Shown: piece after piece, positions 56,643-62,625 of the stretch | How the letters are laid out: each line of letters starts with the position of its first letter | How positions within the stretch are numbered: the first letter of the stretch is position 1 | Assembly (NCBI RefSeq): GCF_000151315.2 | Contig: NW_011887293.1 | Span: 2,216,917-2,280,916 of the forward strand | Reading direction: 5' to 3' | Source of the DNA: Capsaspora owczarzaki ATCC 30864 | Lineage: Eukaryota > Opisthokonta > Filasterea | Length of the DNA: 64,000 nucleotides | Notes under the pieces: model-generated | The model's input: the letters and a program-made list of their open reading frames with translations, nothing else | The model's database searches: none | What the model was told of the DNA's origin: nothing | Position numbers and translations under genes: made by a program

Positions 56643-56895
56643 AGGCAGCAAAAGTCAAGTGCCAAGAAAAAACAAGGGCGTGCAAAAAATGACTCACAGA
56701 ACGGACAAGGAGAATTGCTCAGTTTGTTTTGTTTTGTTTGTTTGTTTTTGTTCTTGTGTGTCGAGTGTTGTTTCTGTTTTCAATGTAGTATGGTTTTCTT
56801 TGCTTGTTTTCAAATTTGGTATTCTCTTCCAAATCCAATCCAAATCACTCTTAGTTTTTTTTCTCTTTCTTTCTTCTTCTTTGTAATTTCTTGCA

Positions 56896-57601
56896 ATGAG
56901 CACAGCGTTAGCATCCAAACGTCGCTTTGACGCCGTGGATGCATCGCCGCCGTCGTCGCCTTCGGGCTCGGCGGGTGGCTTTGGTGTCGCCTCGCATTAC
57001 CAGCACAACAGCTCGCCCACGTTGGGACGGCGCCTGGGCATGATGACGGCAGCGGCGACGACGATGCCCGCGGCGCTGCCATATGGGATCGATGACGTGT
57101 CGTCGTCCATGCTTGGCCACAGCCTGCCCCACACTTCCACACACATGCCACAAGGGCCACTGGGCGGCGGCATGGCGCTGACATCCTCGGCCTCGTCGTT
57201 GGCCATGGCGTCAGCAGCAGCTTCGCCGCTCTTCCGCCAAGCCAGCTCGCAGTACCTCTCCTCCTCATCCTCCCCTGCCGCCGCCGGCCAAGCACCCCAC
57301 CAGCAGCTCTCCAAGCGGTCACGGCAGATGGACGGGAGCAACAACGGCCCCGTCTCGCCCATGTTTGCCTCCATGCAGCTCATCTCGCGGCGGTCGCACG
57401 ACTCTGCCTTTGCCTCCTCCACCTCCAGCGGTACGTCTGTTCTTTTTCACAGAGTTGCTGGTTTTACTATTGTTCTATTGCTCGGAATTGAATTTTCCAC
57501 CACTCCGTCTCTCTTTTGCTCTCTTTGAACTTGAGCGGTTTTACGATTCGTTTTCAAAACCAAAAAAAAAAAAAAAAAAAAAAACTTCGAGAGAAAAACG
57601 G

Positions 57602-57659
<58 letters not shown>

Positions 57660-58582
57660 CGTGGGGTTGCTCTTTATTCACTTTCATTGGATTTTTTTGA
57701 CTGGTTGTCGTTGTTTCCATCCTTCTCTGCGAGTCCTGTTGGCACACTTTGCATGCTGTTTGTTTGTCGATTGCGAATGAGCACGCACTATGATCGGGAT
57801 GGTGGGGTGTCGTTCGAGATGAGCGGCTTTCGTCGCTTCTGGTCGGTCATCAGGTTGGAAGTGTTCGCTGCCGCCGCCGCCGCCTTGACAAAGCAAAATG
57901 GTTGCTTGGGATATGGTTTGAAGAAGGGCGAGAAAAAAAAACCAAACAGGCGGACGGCATTGCGCTGTCGTCGAGCTCAACCCTGAAACTGTTTCACATT
58001 TCACCTTCACGCTCTGATCAACGTCCTGACGCGTGAAACTCACAAACAACCATTGTGTACACCTTTTTTTTTGTTGTTGTTGTTGTTTGTTGCTCCAGAC
58101 CCAGTGGACAAATATATCGCCGGCTCAAAGCGGGTGCGGAATCACATTCAGGAAGACGCGTCCGTCATGCGTCCGCCACCAGAAGAGGAGCAGCAGTACT
58201 TTACACTTAGCGAGGTTAAATCTATTCTTGAGCGGGCGCTCGAGGATCGCGAGAATCAACTTCGAGCTGAATACGACATTACATTGCAGCAAAAGCTGAG
58301 TGGTACGTTCGCTAGTTGTTGGCACGGATGTGCTTGCTTTCCCCGTAAACCTTGGCACTCACTCTGCGTTGCTTTGCCATGCAGAGCAATTCAATTCGTT
58401 TTCAAAGTTCAACGAGGACCACATTCATCGGCAACTCAAAGAGTCGACTTGGTCTTGTGAGTTTGTTTTGACTTTTTTTGTGTGTGTGTTTGTGTTGTTG
58501 TGCTCCCGTCAATGTATGTCTGCAGCTCCAGTGCTCATGTCTCTTCCACTTGCTGTGTCAAATTTTCACAGACATGTCGTAA
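56896..58582 (+). CDS. AKIRIN: Akirin
   Basis: Four exons: 56896-57430, 58099-58302, 58385-58456 and an 11-nt terminal exon 58572-58582, giving 273 aa. The start has the akirin-like basic motif SKRRFDAVDASPPSS, followed by a Ser/Ala-rich disordered middle. The conserved C-terminal helical region reads QQYFTLSEVKSILERALEDREN, LRAEYDITLQQKLSEQFNSF and KFNEDHIHRQ. It ends STWSYMS, equivalent to the SYVS end of animal akirins, which is known to bind the proteasome for nuclear import. Akirins also link transcription factors to chromatin remodelling. The first intron holds facing A23 and T57 tracts. PSMD7 lies immediately upstream on the same strand. Confidence 0.93.
57562..57659. repeat. A23 and T57 homopolymer tracts in akirin intron 1
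   Basis: A23 at 57562-57584 and T57 at 57603-57659, 18 bp apart. On the transcript they are complementary and could fold into an A:U hairpin. Confidence 0.95.
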
Positions 58583-58965
58583 AATGGTTGGAGCGAACGT
58601 ATCTACCGCGCCTGCAGGTCGTTTCGCTTTGATTCTCTGTTGTTTGGTTGAACTGCTTTTTCGATCTCGTTGCTCTTCCCCCGTTTTTTTTTTCGGGCGG
58701 GGGGGGGGGCAACTCGTTTTCAATCTCCATTTTGTATCCATGAAGCACATACAATGAATTCGAACGCTCTCGCACAACGTCGGCTGAAATTACAAATAAC
58801 TTTGGACAACTTTGATCGTCAAAAATGCTGCCGTTGTTGGCATTGTGTGTATGTGTGTGTGCGTGTGTGTCGACTTTTCTCTCATTTTCACATGTACCAA
58901 GACGTAGTTCAATCAGACCAGTGCACACATCACGAAAGAATCAATGTTCATTGTCAACCACGATC
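58583..58965. other. Convergent intergenic region, akirin / amidase-like receptor
   Basis: 383 bp between stop codons. It holds a G-run (58699-58709) and GT-rich sequence at 58846-58869. No gene was seen. Confidence 0.55.
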
Positions 58966-61900
58966 TCAATTGCCGTCCGAAGTTATGCTGGCATACGTCA
59001 CAGCACCAACAGCCGGTGCTCCGCCGTTTCCAAGGACATCGTAAGTGTTCTCCTGCTGCTCATCAGAATGGTGCGGCGCTTCATACTGCGACGCCATCGT
59101 GACCTTCTCAGAGTCAAGGTCGCTGCCGCTGGCGAGCCCAGGGGCATTGAGCGTATCATAGACGCCATCCATTTCAGCGCCATGATCGAGCAGCGGGTTG
59201 GCAAAGAGCATCGTGGACTGCGGGGCGGGGGCTTCGGCGTTCGGCGCAGGTTTGCTGCGACGGCGACGAACGACAAGAAGCAGGATGAGCAAAAGAAGCA
59301 ACAGCAGGACGACACCGCCGCCAGCACCGCCAGCAATCGCTCCGATGGGCAAGGAATCATTGGGGACGGGCGCGCAAACATGATCAGCCTTGCTTGCATA
59401 GTCGATCGGGCAGGAGGCGACGCATCGGGCGCCAAACTTGAAGTGCGCGCAGGAAACGCATTCCGTGTCCGCTGGGCCAGTGCAGCCGCCTTGACATTCA
59501 ACGTGGCACGAGTATTGCGGGGTTTGAGTGGCTGACGCTGACGCTTCGGAGGCCACAGAGGCAGAAGCTGAGGCACGGGACGCTTCCGACGCTTCCGACG
59601 CAGCTGATTCTGATGATGCCGAGGCGATCGATGCAGACGATGCTGAGGCAATCGATTCTGACGATGCTGAGGCGATCGATGCAGACGATGCTGAGGCAAT
59701 CGATTCTGACGATTCTGAGGCGATTGACGCAGATGATGCTGAGGCGATTGACGCAGACGATTCTGAGGCGATCGATTCTGACGATGCCGAGGCAATCGAT
59801 TCTGACGATGCTGAAGCGATTGACGCAGACGATTCTGAGGCGATTGACGCAGACGATGCTGAGGCGACCGATTCTGACGATGCTGAGGCGATCGATTCTG
59901 ACGATGCCGAAGCGATCGATTTGGAAGATGCTGAGGCGATTGATGCAGACGACGCGGAAGCAAGCGAGGCAGAGACTGTGGAGGCGACAGATGCAACAGT
60001 GGCTGAGGCTGTGGAAGCGGCAGAAGCAATTGAGGCAACGCTTGCAGACACGGTGGTTGCAATCGAAGCAGAGCTTCGGGAAGCAACCGACGCTCGCGTG
60101 GCCATGCTGGCAGCCGAGCTGACGGACGGCAGCGCCAAGGGCAAGTCAGGAGCTGCGAACATGATGGTGGACAGGATCGAAGCCATCAACTTGTCGCGCT
60201 CGTCTCGCGAGTTGATCGTTTCAAAAGGGAAGGCAAGCAAGAAGGAAGCATAATATCCTGCCGTGCTGCGTGAGCTGACACCAGCGACATTCGTCCCAGA
60301 CGAAGGGCCGTAGTACAGCGCCGCTGTTCCTGTGCCTGCTGTGCCGATCTGATCCGGCGAGCTGACAGCGTATGGGTTCCCCAGTGCCACAATGCTGTTG
60401 AAGGCCACAGTGCCGCTCATGGTGAATCCAGCGTTCGGGCGAACAACGAAAGTGTTTGCATTGGCGTTGACAAAGGTGGACTTGAGTTGACTGTTGAGGA
60501 AGGTGAGGCTGGTACTGCCCGCAGCACTAAGGCCAGCAGCGACATTCGAGCCACTGACGAAAAGCGAGCGAGGGCTTGCAGAGGAGGCACCTGCAATCCA
60601 CGAGTTGATGGCGGTTTGCGCAACAGCAGGGAAGACATTGATGTTGGCGGCCGTATCACCCGACGCCCAGACAACCGCCTTGTACGCGGCGAGGTTGTTG
60701 GTAACCCATTGGGACTCAGAAAAGATGTCTGCAGATGCAGAATCAAACGAGTAACCGGCTCCAGCAATCGACAGGGCGTGCTCGACCACATACTCCCGCG
60801 TGTACCGACCCTCGATGTTGGTAGAAGTGTGCACAAAGCCTTCGACAAAGCAGTCGACGATGACAATTGGCGGACGAGTGACACCAACAGCAGGGTCGGT
60901 CACGCGCGCCGCTGCCGTCCATTTGGTCAACGCTTCGCCTCCTGCATTGAGACCGGCAACCTTGAAAAAGTAGACTTGCCCGACTGTCAAAGATGTAACG
61001 TCGTAGCACAAGCTGTTAAGGTACGTAAAAGCGGCGACGATGACTCCATCATCCCATCCGCGTCCATCGGTAGACCGGTAAATCTTGAACGCGGTCGCAG
61101 CGTCAGTGGACTCTTGGGTGTCGTCAGGTTGGCGCCAGCAGACTCGAACCACGTTGCCGCCTTGGTTGATGGTGTGCAGGTAGTTGACAGGGAGCGGAAT
61201 GATGGTGGCGGTCGATGAAAAGTACTTGGCAATGCCCTTGTAGTATGCGCGCCCGAGCTGTTTGATGGAGGAAGAAGATTCGTGTGAGATTCCATGCGCC
61301 AGCTCATGAAAGCAAAGACCACAGCGTACGTACATTCTCGCGACCCGCTTCGGACTGAGCCAGTAGCATGTCTACATTGTTGGAGGCGTAATAAGGAATG
61401 GCCATCATGGTGGGCATTCGTGAGGACGAATCAAGCGGCGCCCATTGATGAAGGTTGTTGGCTTTGTCTAAAAGACCCGTTGAAACTGCGGCCGCATGAA
61501 TGACGTCGCGGAAGCTATCCGAAGCGGCCTGCAATGAGGAGTTGTAGATCGCCGTACTGGTGATGCCCGTGTATGACGAGGTACGACCCTATCGAGCAAA
61601 ATCATTAATCAAAGAGTACCGCGAAAAGCACACATTCCGTTTCATGCACTTACGTTGCTGTAGCTGAAATCCTGGGTGCCACGAGTTGCGGAGTCGCTAG
61701 TAGCGGTGCTCACAAGGTAGAAAAGCGCCCAATTTTGCCAGTTGGCAGTTTCCAGATCGCCTTGAATCATCTGCTTGCTGAAATCAGCCATCGCTGTTGC
61801 CGAGCTCGTGCTGACAGTGTAGTTCATGTAGGTCAAAAAGCTGGACGTGCCGTAGTGGAAGCGAGGATAGCCGCCAAGGGAACCGCAACCGACGCGAACT

Positions 61901-62625
61901 GCATCCACAATGACATATCTGCCAGCGTCGACGGCAAAGTCAAGCTTGTTGGAAACTTCGACGCGAAAGCCTGTCTTGGTAAAGTAGTAGCGACCGGCAT
62001 ACATCCACTGCCTGCTGTACATGTTTTGATTCATGTACAGGGTAGTTGTGCCACCAGAATGGAAGATTCGAATGAGCGTGCGAGAGGCACGGTTTTGGCC
62101 GTCGCCCAAACCACGAATGTACACGGGATAGTACCCATCGGCGGCAAGGGTGGTCACGAAAGCTGCGACGGCTGTTTCTGCATTCAGGTTGCCAAATACG
62201 TACGAGTGGTAACCGAGGAACCCAACGCCGTAGGAAGTCCATCCACCAGTTTTGATGCAGTTGGCAGATTGATCGTCCAGAATCTGCTCGTCGGACGTGC
62301 CAAACCAGCGCTCGCGTGTCATGAACACGGTTGCACCCGCGTTGGCGAGGTACTCTTGAGTGTAACGAATCATGATCTCGTTATGATAGACATCGGGCAG
62401 CTGGGAATTGAGCCCCATGTTGTATTCGTAAGCATTTGAGATGGAGTTTCGTCCACCGTCAGGCGCCAACACGACACTGCGACCAGCAAGTTGCGGACGG
62501 GTGGTCTTGGCCGCGTTCATCCAGGGCGTCGGCAGACCGTGGATGTCTGCCAATGCGCTTTGAGGAGCGCAGCAAGCCAGGAGAAGCAGGGCGACAACAA
62601 TCCAACGAGGCTCCAGATTCGCCAT
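58966..62625 (-). CDS. Type I membrane protein: amidase-like/golvesin-like/FN3 ectodomain with tyrosine-motif tail
   Basis: Three exons: 62625-61654, 61588-61334 and 61257-58966, all phase 0, giving 1172 aa. A signal peptide (WIVVALLLLACC) opens the protein. An N-acetylmuramoyl-L-alanine-amidase-like fold follows (QEYLANAGATVFMTRER); the usual GHG zinc-histidine loop reads APDGGR, so catalysis is doubtful. A golvesin-like module (RIFHSGGTTTLYMNQ...QWMYAGRYYF...YVIVDAVRVG), MPTMMAIPYYASN, YKGIAKYF, an FN3 domain (VVRVCWRQP...FKIYRSTDGRGWDDG) and a ThuA/GATase-like region (KAVVWASGD) complete the bacterial-type part. Next come an 8-residue Ser/Ala repeat stalk, a furin-like Cys cluster (59380-59515), one membrane helix (GGVVLLLLLLLILLLVV) and RRRR. 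The ~95-residue tail carries YDTL, YEAP and YDVL-x12-YASI. Domain names come from recalled family patterns, not a search. Confidence 0.82.
59560..59960 (-). repeat. 24-bp coding repeat (8-residue SASSESIA unit)
   Basis: About 14 imperfect tandem copies of a 24-bp unit inside exon 3 of the membrane protein, encoding SIASASSE-type repeats. They probably form an extended, possibly O-glycosylated stalk. The same repeat leaves the opposite strand open as a DDAEAID frame. Confidence 0.9.

Follow-up and report, generated by a model that had tools for sequence, protein, structure and literature searches.

Bacterial-type pseudo-amidase ectodomains in a putative receptor family of Capsaspora owczarzaki

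Single-pass receptors with tyrosine motifs in the tail and bacterial glycan-binding proteins are among the described systems closest to the gene treated here. The tails of MEGF10 and Draper combine an NPxY motif with an immunoreceptor tyrosine-based activation motif (ITAM), and the tail of CED-1 combines NPxY with YxxL (PMC8092387). The proteins Cbeg4 and Cbeg5 consist of a signal peptide, FN3 and a CBM6-CBM35-CBM36_like_2 domain, an architecture termed specific to commensal Bacteroides, and their carbohydrate-binding domains bind N-glycans sharing the motif Galb1-3GlcNAcb1-2Mana1-3Man (Cohen and co-workers, PMC9166713). Golvesin, a Golgi protein of Dictyostelium, is named there among only two characterised proteins with a CBM6-CBM35-CBM36_like_2 domain (PMC9166713). 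The gene in question lies at 58966-62625 on the minus strand of a 64,000-nucleotide stretch of Capsaspora owczarzaki ATCC 30864 (the window; contig NW_011887293.1, positions 2,216,917 to 2,280,916) and combines an ectodomain of bacterial type with a membrane helix and a tyrosine-rich tail.

Capsaspora was isolated from snails and can sense and kill schistosomes (PMC13171883). It forms aggregates, in which expression rises for two receptor kinases whose ectodomains are of the DERM and fibronectin_3 types (PMC3870316). Both transfection and genome editing have been reported for it (PMC6001378, PMC9170242). The reading preferred here, held at a probability of roughly one half, is that the gene encodes a kinase-less single-pass contact receptor that would recognise glycans and signal through phosphotyrosine.

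Family members and their cytoplasmic ends

The genome (27.46 Mb in 29 contigs, the window being part of a 2.67-Mb contig) was searched with exon 1 and with the FN3 and GATase-like part of the gene as queries, and both recovered the same nine golvesin loci on contigs C2, C5, C9, C13 and C19. Two of the nine, L031 (G000:C9:803000-812900) and L037 (G000:C19:142500-152400), bear a tyrosine kinase in place of the docking tail (PK_Tyr_Ser-Thr, 9.9e-47 and 6.6e-47) with the motifs HRDLAARN and DFG, so that the ectodomain would also serve as that of a receptor tyrosine kinase. Past the kinase of L037, more than 6.5 kb along in gene orientation, there is a long stretch of N. Within one genome, as far as the sequences tell, one ectodomain cassette is joined to two cytoplasmic ends, a docking tail and a tyrosine kinase. 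The initial annotation had described a fusion of a bacterial-type ectodomain with an animal-style signalling tail; both parts do stand in one predicted gene, which, however, belongs to a family of nine loci and is no isolated fusion, and two of these loci have a kinase. Contamination or a bacterial insert was considered and is opposed by the conserved introns, the eukaryotic modules in the same frames and the spread of the nine loci over five contigs.

The nearest copy, L030, lies about 107 kb from the studied gene, with which it shares the Cys module and which it resembles in its tail. Compared in steps of 100 bases, the two are 94-100% identical in the ectodomain, introns included, from directly behind the signal peptide; identity falls to 0-76% in the stalk, recovers to 95-100% where the Cys module and the membrane part are encoded, and drops again in the tail. 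The ectodomain of L031 is 91-100% identical per 100 bases to that of the studied gene, from which it diverges permanently at the stalk. Because identity between the copies breaks there, the repeat stalk is taken as the swap point, that is, the predicted junction which joins the common ectodomain to different outputs. Elsewhere in the genome, the Cys-module and membrane segment has a distant match (C15:18700-18981) within an open frame that is 948 residues long. A kinase match (C15:19441-20058) has the same register, and the open frame given for it is equally long. Together they suggest that this segment is also joined to a kinase.

So close an identity with the kinase-bearing L031 would also suit a decoy or co-receptor of the kinase-bearing paralogues, which shares their ligand, modulates them by hetero-clustering and, having tail tyrosines without a kinase of its own, serves as their substrate. 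This is quite unlikely, as the reading frame of both kinase loci is interrupted in this assembly, L037 is less closely related, and kinase-less loci outnumber kinase loci by seven to two.

The remaining loci differ in completeness. L032 and L033 have the membrane helix and the tyrosine tail, and no Cys module was seen on reading these two loci. Stalks are very long in L034 and L035, whose open frames comprise 1736 and 1324 residues, respectively; the tail of L034 is short in the frame read and that of L035 breaks off. In exon 3 of these two loci the length of the Ser/Ala stalk varies greatly between copies, and the stalk of L034 holds short stretches resembling another frame. L036 (G000:C13:823500-833400) is a tandem partial duplication of the ectodomain with broken frames, the first copy being cut in the GATase-like region and the second lacking most of exon 1. 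The broken or rearranged state of L036, L031, L037 and the tail of L035 might lead one to regard the studied gene, too, as a decaying duplicate without function. That is most improbable, since the gene is open across 1172 codons and, compared with L030, its ratio of nonsynonymous to synonymous substitution rates (dN/dS) stands at 0.45 for exon 1 and at 0.29 for the FN3 and GATase-like part, where 7 changes are synonymous and 6 nonsynonymous, small numbers in both cases.

The tail gives 0.52 in the same comparison, likewise on small numbers, and the one synonymous and one nonsynonymous change in the Cys module are uninformative. Exon 2 (85 codons, 61334-61588) has 7 nonsynonymous and no synonymous changes between the studied gene and L030, 12 and 0 between the studied gene and L031, and 5 and 0 between L030 and L031, whereas exons 1 and 3 against L030 have changes of both kinds; for L034 against L035 the dN/dS of exon 2 is 0.34. 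These small counts do no more than suggest exon 2 as a place where a recognition surface might be changing fast.

Bacterial relatives, active site and origin

The studied protein is collinear with its bacterial relatives from the first amidase motif to the end, with 22-25% identity over 820-863 alignment columns for five of the six relatives compared; the sixth aligns in two pieces. At a set database size of 1e8, blastp against the nearest relative gives 3.7e-30 for the studied protein and 4.4e-31 for L030. The order amidase, golvesin, FN3 and GATase-like region, recognised by the initial annotation as that of a bacterial protein, is thereby borne out. Members of this Bacteroidota family, annotated as 'xanthan lyase' (for example WP_154395863.1 and WP_195399325.1), have the same regions in the same order as the studied protein. 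They keep the active-site residues of the amidase and mostly have an N-terminal extension, and the six that were aligned stop after the GATase-like region, without stalk or tail.

At least 506 relatives were found in a pattern scan of prokaryote genomes, with a pattern that favours Bacteroidales, and 80 of them were kept. Whole-genome searches, made in groups reached through Bacteroidota-type entries, gave matches in 45 of 245 genomes of one bacterial class at 1e-10 and in 42 of 395 genomes drawn from the phylum at 1e-15, part of them matching the FN3 and GATase-like part only; the two draws from the phylum overlap nearly wholly and were treated as one sample. The family model is covered essentially at full length by 107 of 116 matching open reading frames, a number which includes genes fetched twice; 102 distinct ones and six from plasmid and phage records make up the 108 bacterial sequences used below. 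Many bacterial genomes (G002, G016 and G026 among them) contain open frames of about 670-1050 residues whose match, at positions of about 468-770, is confined to the FN3 and GATase-like part.

Among plasmids and phages, with E 1 as the limit, exon 1 matches a single plasmid record and three from phages; four plasmid records match the FN3 and GATase-like part. The matching plasmid records belong to Bacteroidota, and the annotation beneath the matches, where present, reads 'xanthan lyase'. Two unverified 'Bacteriophage sp.' faecal records, L041 and L042 (MT835805.1, MT836053.1), hold full-length bacterial family members and may be bacterial contigs or prophage neighbours. Viral homologues were set aside, a scan of viral contigs having given five loci of which the two that were read (L159, L162) are FN3 repeats.

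For the active-site and tree tables the five uninterrupted ectodomain copies were taken (the studied gene, L030, L032, L034 and L035), leaving out L031 and L037 for their frame interruption, L033 for its uncertain intron-1 acceptor and L036 as rearranged. By the family profile, the second amidase half aligns with the solved amidases 7rag (1.1e-5) and 3ne8 (4.7e-5), the His of SIHAD and the Glu of PSVLIE in 3ne8 falling on the family motifs AFHxDAG and LLELLSHQ. In amidases of this kind His, Glu and His bind zinc and a further Glu is catalytic; the columns of the second His and of the catalytic Glu agree with 3ne8, and those of the first His and of the zinc Glu were assigned by motif position. 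All four positions (first His, Glu, second His and catalytic Glu) are retained by the bacterial sequences, 108 of 108, a count biased upward at the last residue, as about 80 of the loci came from the pattern scan with one pattern just behind it, the later whole-genome finds having been made without that pattern. Both His and the catalytic Glu are absent in all five Capsaspora copies. The first Glu column remains only in L032 and lies near gaps, so that its loss in the other four is less sure than the losses of His and catalytic Glu. By these residues the amidase domain is a pseudo-amidase, and an active peptidoglycan amidase was rejected on their loss. As the catalytic residues are lost, the wall binding put forward in the initial annotation is not implied by enzymology.

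The golvesin domain inserted in the amidase matches, as a family profile, the C-terminal part (residues 944-1036) of the Paenibacillus xanthan lyase 6f2p at 1.7e-17. This end, which resembles a carbohydrate-binding module (CBM), is the only part with a significant match, the catalytic lyase domain giving none, and a real xanthan lyase was therefore rejected as an identity of the protein.

A tree of 113 sequences unites the five Capsaspora copies in one clade (support 1.0, branch 1.36), which attaches between 21 bacterial sequences and the other 87 (neighbouring splits supported 0.71 and 0.86). Because the distribution in bacteria is broad and the active site is lost in the Capsaspora copies, we infer a transfer from bacteria to the eukaryote, the ectodomain having been acquired most probably from a Bacteroidota-type bacterium. 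It would afterwards have been duplicated, and recombination within the repeat stalk would have swapped its cytoplasmic end. Lateral acquisition, as the initial annotation had it, is likely from collinearity, bacterial breadth and active-site loss, while the phylogeny with its long branch places neither donor nor date.

Gene model and domain layout

The predicted gene runs from the start ATG at 62625 to a stop codon ending at 58966, and its joined three-exon model is free of stops (Table 1). Intron 1 is present in six of seven gene models, the studied gene counted, and is missing in L032; the acceptor in L033 is unclear. The acceptor AG of intron 2 stands at the identical place in all nine loci. 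Introns conserved across the family give indirect support to the predicted splicing. Alternative splice pairs that preserve the frame exist, and the chosen ones are favoured by donor quality, conservation between paralogues and fit to the bacterial alignment.

Table 1 Predicted features of the studied gene in coordinates of the window
Feature	Position	Strand	Basis or detail
Whole gene	58966..62625	-	3 exons, 1172 residues predicted
Exon 1	61654..62625	-	open frame and GTAAGT donor
Signal peptide, about residues 1-26	62548..62625	-	hydropathy
Amidase-like domain, N-terminal half; first His column replaced (APDGGR)	62215..62547	-	bacterial collinearity, active-site table
Golvesin / CBM-like domain inserted in amidase	61882..62214	-	Pfam Golvesin_C 1.6e-15; family profile against 6f2p 944-1036
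Amidase-like domain, C-terminal half, spanning both introns; second His and catalytic Glu lost	61213..61881	-	bacterial alignment, active-site table, solved amidases
Intron 1	61589..61653	-	65 bases, GTAAGT...TAG
Exon 2, C-terminal half of dead amidase	61334..61588	-	open frame, splice sites, paralogue comparison
Intron 2	61258..61333	-	76 bases, GTACGT...CAG
Exon 3	58966..61257	-	open frame through to stop
FN3 domain	60898..61200	-	Pfam fn3 sub-threshold; collinear with fn3 of bacterial relatives
GATase-like C-terminal region of bacterial family	60154..60876	-	collinear alignment
Ser/Ala-rich repeat stalk, 208 residues, strongest period 8; identity between copies breaks here	59530..60153	-	repeat analysis, copy comparison
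Furin-like Cys-rich module	59353..59529	-	Pfam Furin-like 4.1e-9
Membrane helix, then RRRR	59269..59346	-	hydropathy 3.15, top value in protein
Cytoplasmic tail, 100 residues: FANPLL, YDTL, YEAP, YDVL, YASI	58969..59268	-	hydropathy, motif scan

Pfam was run separately on the three exon pieces. Golvesin_C (PF25275) in exon 1 reaches 57.8 bits (cut-off 31.6, exceeded at all nine loci) and Furin-like in exon 3 reaches 36.9 bits (cut-off 26.8). Among the domains which the initial annotation had expected, golvesin is thus found by Pfam, fn3 stays below threshold with 13.9 bits (cut-off 25), and Amidase_3 has no match in the exon pieces up to E 10 and none genome-wide at E 0.001. In the bacterial relatives fn3 scores 18.5-24.9 bits, and Amidase_3 is sub-threshold in the three that were scanned. 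The amidase and FN3 assignments of the studied protein lean on these relatives, in which Pfam detects both domains weakly. The name 'GATase-like' is taken over from the initial annotation, and the region is presumably of that kind. No kinase domain and no EMI or EGF domain was matched by Pfam in the exon pieces.

Hydropathy is strongest in the membrane helix (3.15), followed by the signal peptide (2.06). A further stretch, weaker than these (1.53), lies at residue 767 inside the GATase-like region and is probably a buried segment. Sub-threshold matches of MYXO-CTERM and GGIII sorting signals lie on the membrane helix, where RRRR and the long tail favour an ordinary membrane anchor. A match to the phage gp5-like Gp5_trimer_C, below cut-off on the Ser/Ala stalk, was taken as low complexity. 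Open frames, splice sites and domains are placed as in the initial annotation (introns 61653-61589 and 61333-61258), and its signal peptide, repeat stalk, Cys-rich module, single membrane helix and Tyr-rich tail are all recovered by hydropathy, Pfam, repeat and motif analysis.

A convergent neighbour gene lies on the plus strand at 56887-58600 of the window. Pfam gave no match over cut-off for it, and its C-terminal exons look akirin-like.

Tail motifs, mode of action and described receptors

In the four complete tails 15 of 19 tyrosines lie in YxxPhi motifs, in excess over shuffled tails in each (P 0.0156, 0.0354, 0.0006 and 0.0004, the first two tails being near copies), and an acidic residue follows the tyrosine in 10 of these 15 motifs. 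A motif F[AD]NPL[FL] follows the membrane helix at six of seven loci without a kinase and is absent from the two kinase loci. The end of the studied tail, ENTYDVL-x12-YASI, fits a broad ITAM pattern, here (D/E)xxYxxL-x12-YxxI. As possible partners, the genome has 34 SH2 exon matches, some with internal stops, and 115 matches to a kinase query, a number which includes the two of the family itself and probably kinases of non-tyrosine type. A pair of SH2 domains at G000:C2:2311766-2312305, about 31 kb past the end of the window, shares an open frame of 807 residues and may belong to a tandem-SH2 reader.

The same motifs could act as sorting signals of a receptor that takes up lipoprotein or soluble glycoconjugates, by endocytosis or as a scavenger, without phosphotyrosine signalling. 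F[AD]NPL[FL], found at six of the nine loci, is similar to FDNPVY of the low-density lipoprotein receptor, and the proportion of tyrosines within YxxPhi would suit such a role. It is nevertheless very unlikely, because the acidic residues behind the tyrosines and the kinase-bearing sisters suggest phosphotyrosine use and the genome has a single weak PTB match.

According to the preferred reading of a glycan-recognising phosphotyrosine receptor, the ectodomain would bind glycan chiefly via the golvesin/CBM domain, by analogy with Cbeg4 and Cbeg5, and the Ser/Ala stalk would keep it clear of the membrane. A multivalent surface, be it that of a bacterium or other prey, of host snail or schistosome tissue or of a sister cell, could cluster the receptors. 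A kinase acting in trans, either cytoplasmic or a receptor kinase of the same cluster, would phosphorylate the tail tyrosines, which would then recruit SH2 proteins. The FxNPxL/F and YxxPhi motifs may drive uptake, akin to the engulfment receptors CED-1, Draper and MEGF10. Since Capsaspora came from snails and can sense and kill schistosomes, candidate ligands include glycans of the host, of parasites, of bacteria and of sister cells. Bacterial sensing, as proposed in the initial annotation, is one of several candidate ligand classes, and the studied look-alikes Cbeg4 and Cbeg5 bind N-glycans.

An adhesion receptor for contacts between cells or with matrix in aggregation, its tail anchored to the cytoskeleton, is an unlikely alternative to which several features lend themselves. 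The NPLF motif resembles integrin beta tails, and the long Ser/Ala stalk suits a spacer. Capsaspora does aggregate, with the upregulation of DERM and fibronectin_3 receptor kinases mentioned above (PMC3870316), but the nearest studied bacterial look-alikes are lectins.

Several observations weigh against the phosphotyrosine contact receptor and its history. L031 and L037 each have one frame interruption in the ectodomain-coding part, from either real decay or an assembly error, so that a working receptor tyrosine kinase form is at best a candidate. The NPxF-like motif has no tyrosine, ends in Leu in the studied gene (FANPLL) and is missing in L034. Strict ITAM spacing occurs in the studied gene only (x17 in L030; last residue V in L032 and M in L033). 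The one PTB-type (PID) match in the genome is weak (E 0.0027, in a search that can miss intron-split domains) and weakens the NPxF part. By architecture, and Cbeg5 by size as well, Cbeg4 and Cbeg5 are candidate members of the family of the bacterial relatives. The Capsaspora copies stand on a very long branch, and the tree gives no donor placement.

A wider and more tentative proposal, which we hold to be doubtful, is that a captured bacterial surface lectin/amidase, enzymatically dead, became a multigene receptor system. In this system, recombination through the repeat stalk would have paired one ectodomain with a tyrosine kinase or an ITAM/NPxF-type tail. With exon 2 as a fast-changing recognition exon, such a system would be a pre-animal analogue of paired immune and engulfment receptors. 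If true, the ligand-binding part of a pre-animal tyrosine-kinase receptor came from bacteria as a whole protein that lost catalysis, and the family would be a concrete case in which ligand class (glycans) and output class (phosphotyrosine) become testable in a probably tractable organism. It would also bear on how microbe or host recognition came to be coupled to tyrosine signalling in the time before animals.

Lineage-specific ectodomains are already known from premetazoan receptors. In the literature searched, no description was met of a whole, catalytically dead bacterial surface protein that kinase and docking-tail receptors share; no paper there joins Capsaspora with golvesin, and the listed titles and beginnings of abstracts describe no such receptor. 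The work of Suga from 2012, reportedly the central account of receptor kinases in Capsaspora, may include L031 and L037. Among the receptor tyrosine kinases of Capsaspora, two carry the same ectodomain as the studied gene, which differs in being kinase-less with an ectodomain of bacterial type. Dictyostelium golvesin, the namesake of the golvesin C-terminal domain, is likened to the studied protein by domain name alone. Cbeg4 and Cbeg5 share signal peptide, FN3 and golvesin-type CBM with it, and the Cbeg5 construct (residues 21-957) has the size of the bacterial relatives found here (PMC9166713), but both are secreted proteins and not receptors. MEGF10, Draper and CED-1 are single-pass like the studied protein, which has NPx(F/L)-like and YxxL motifs in its tail as well, with FANPLL in place of NPxY and with no EMI or EGF match in its ectodomain. 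Judged from the sequences, this likeness is one of working parts, not of descent.

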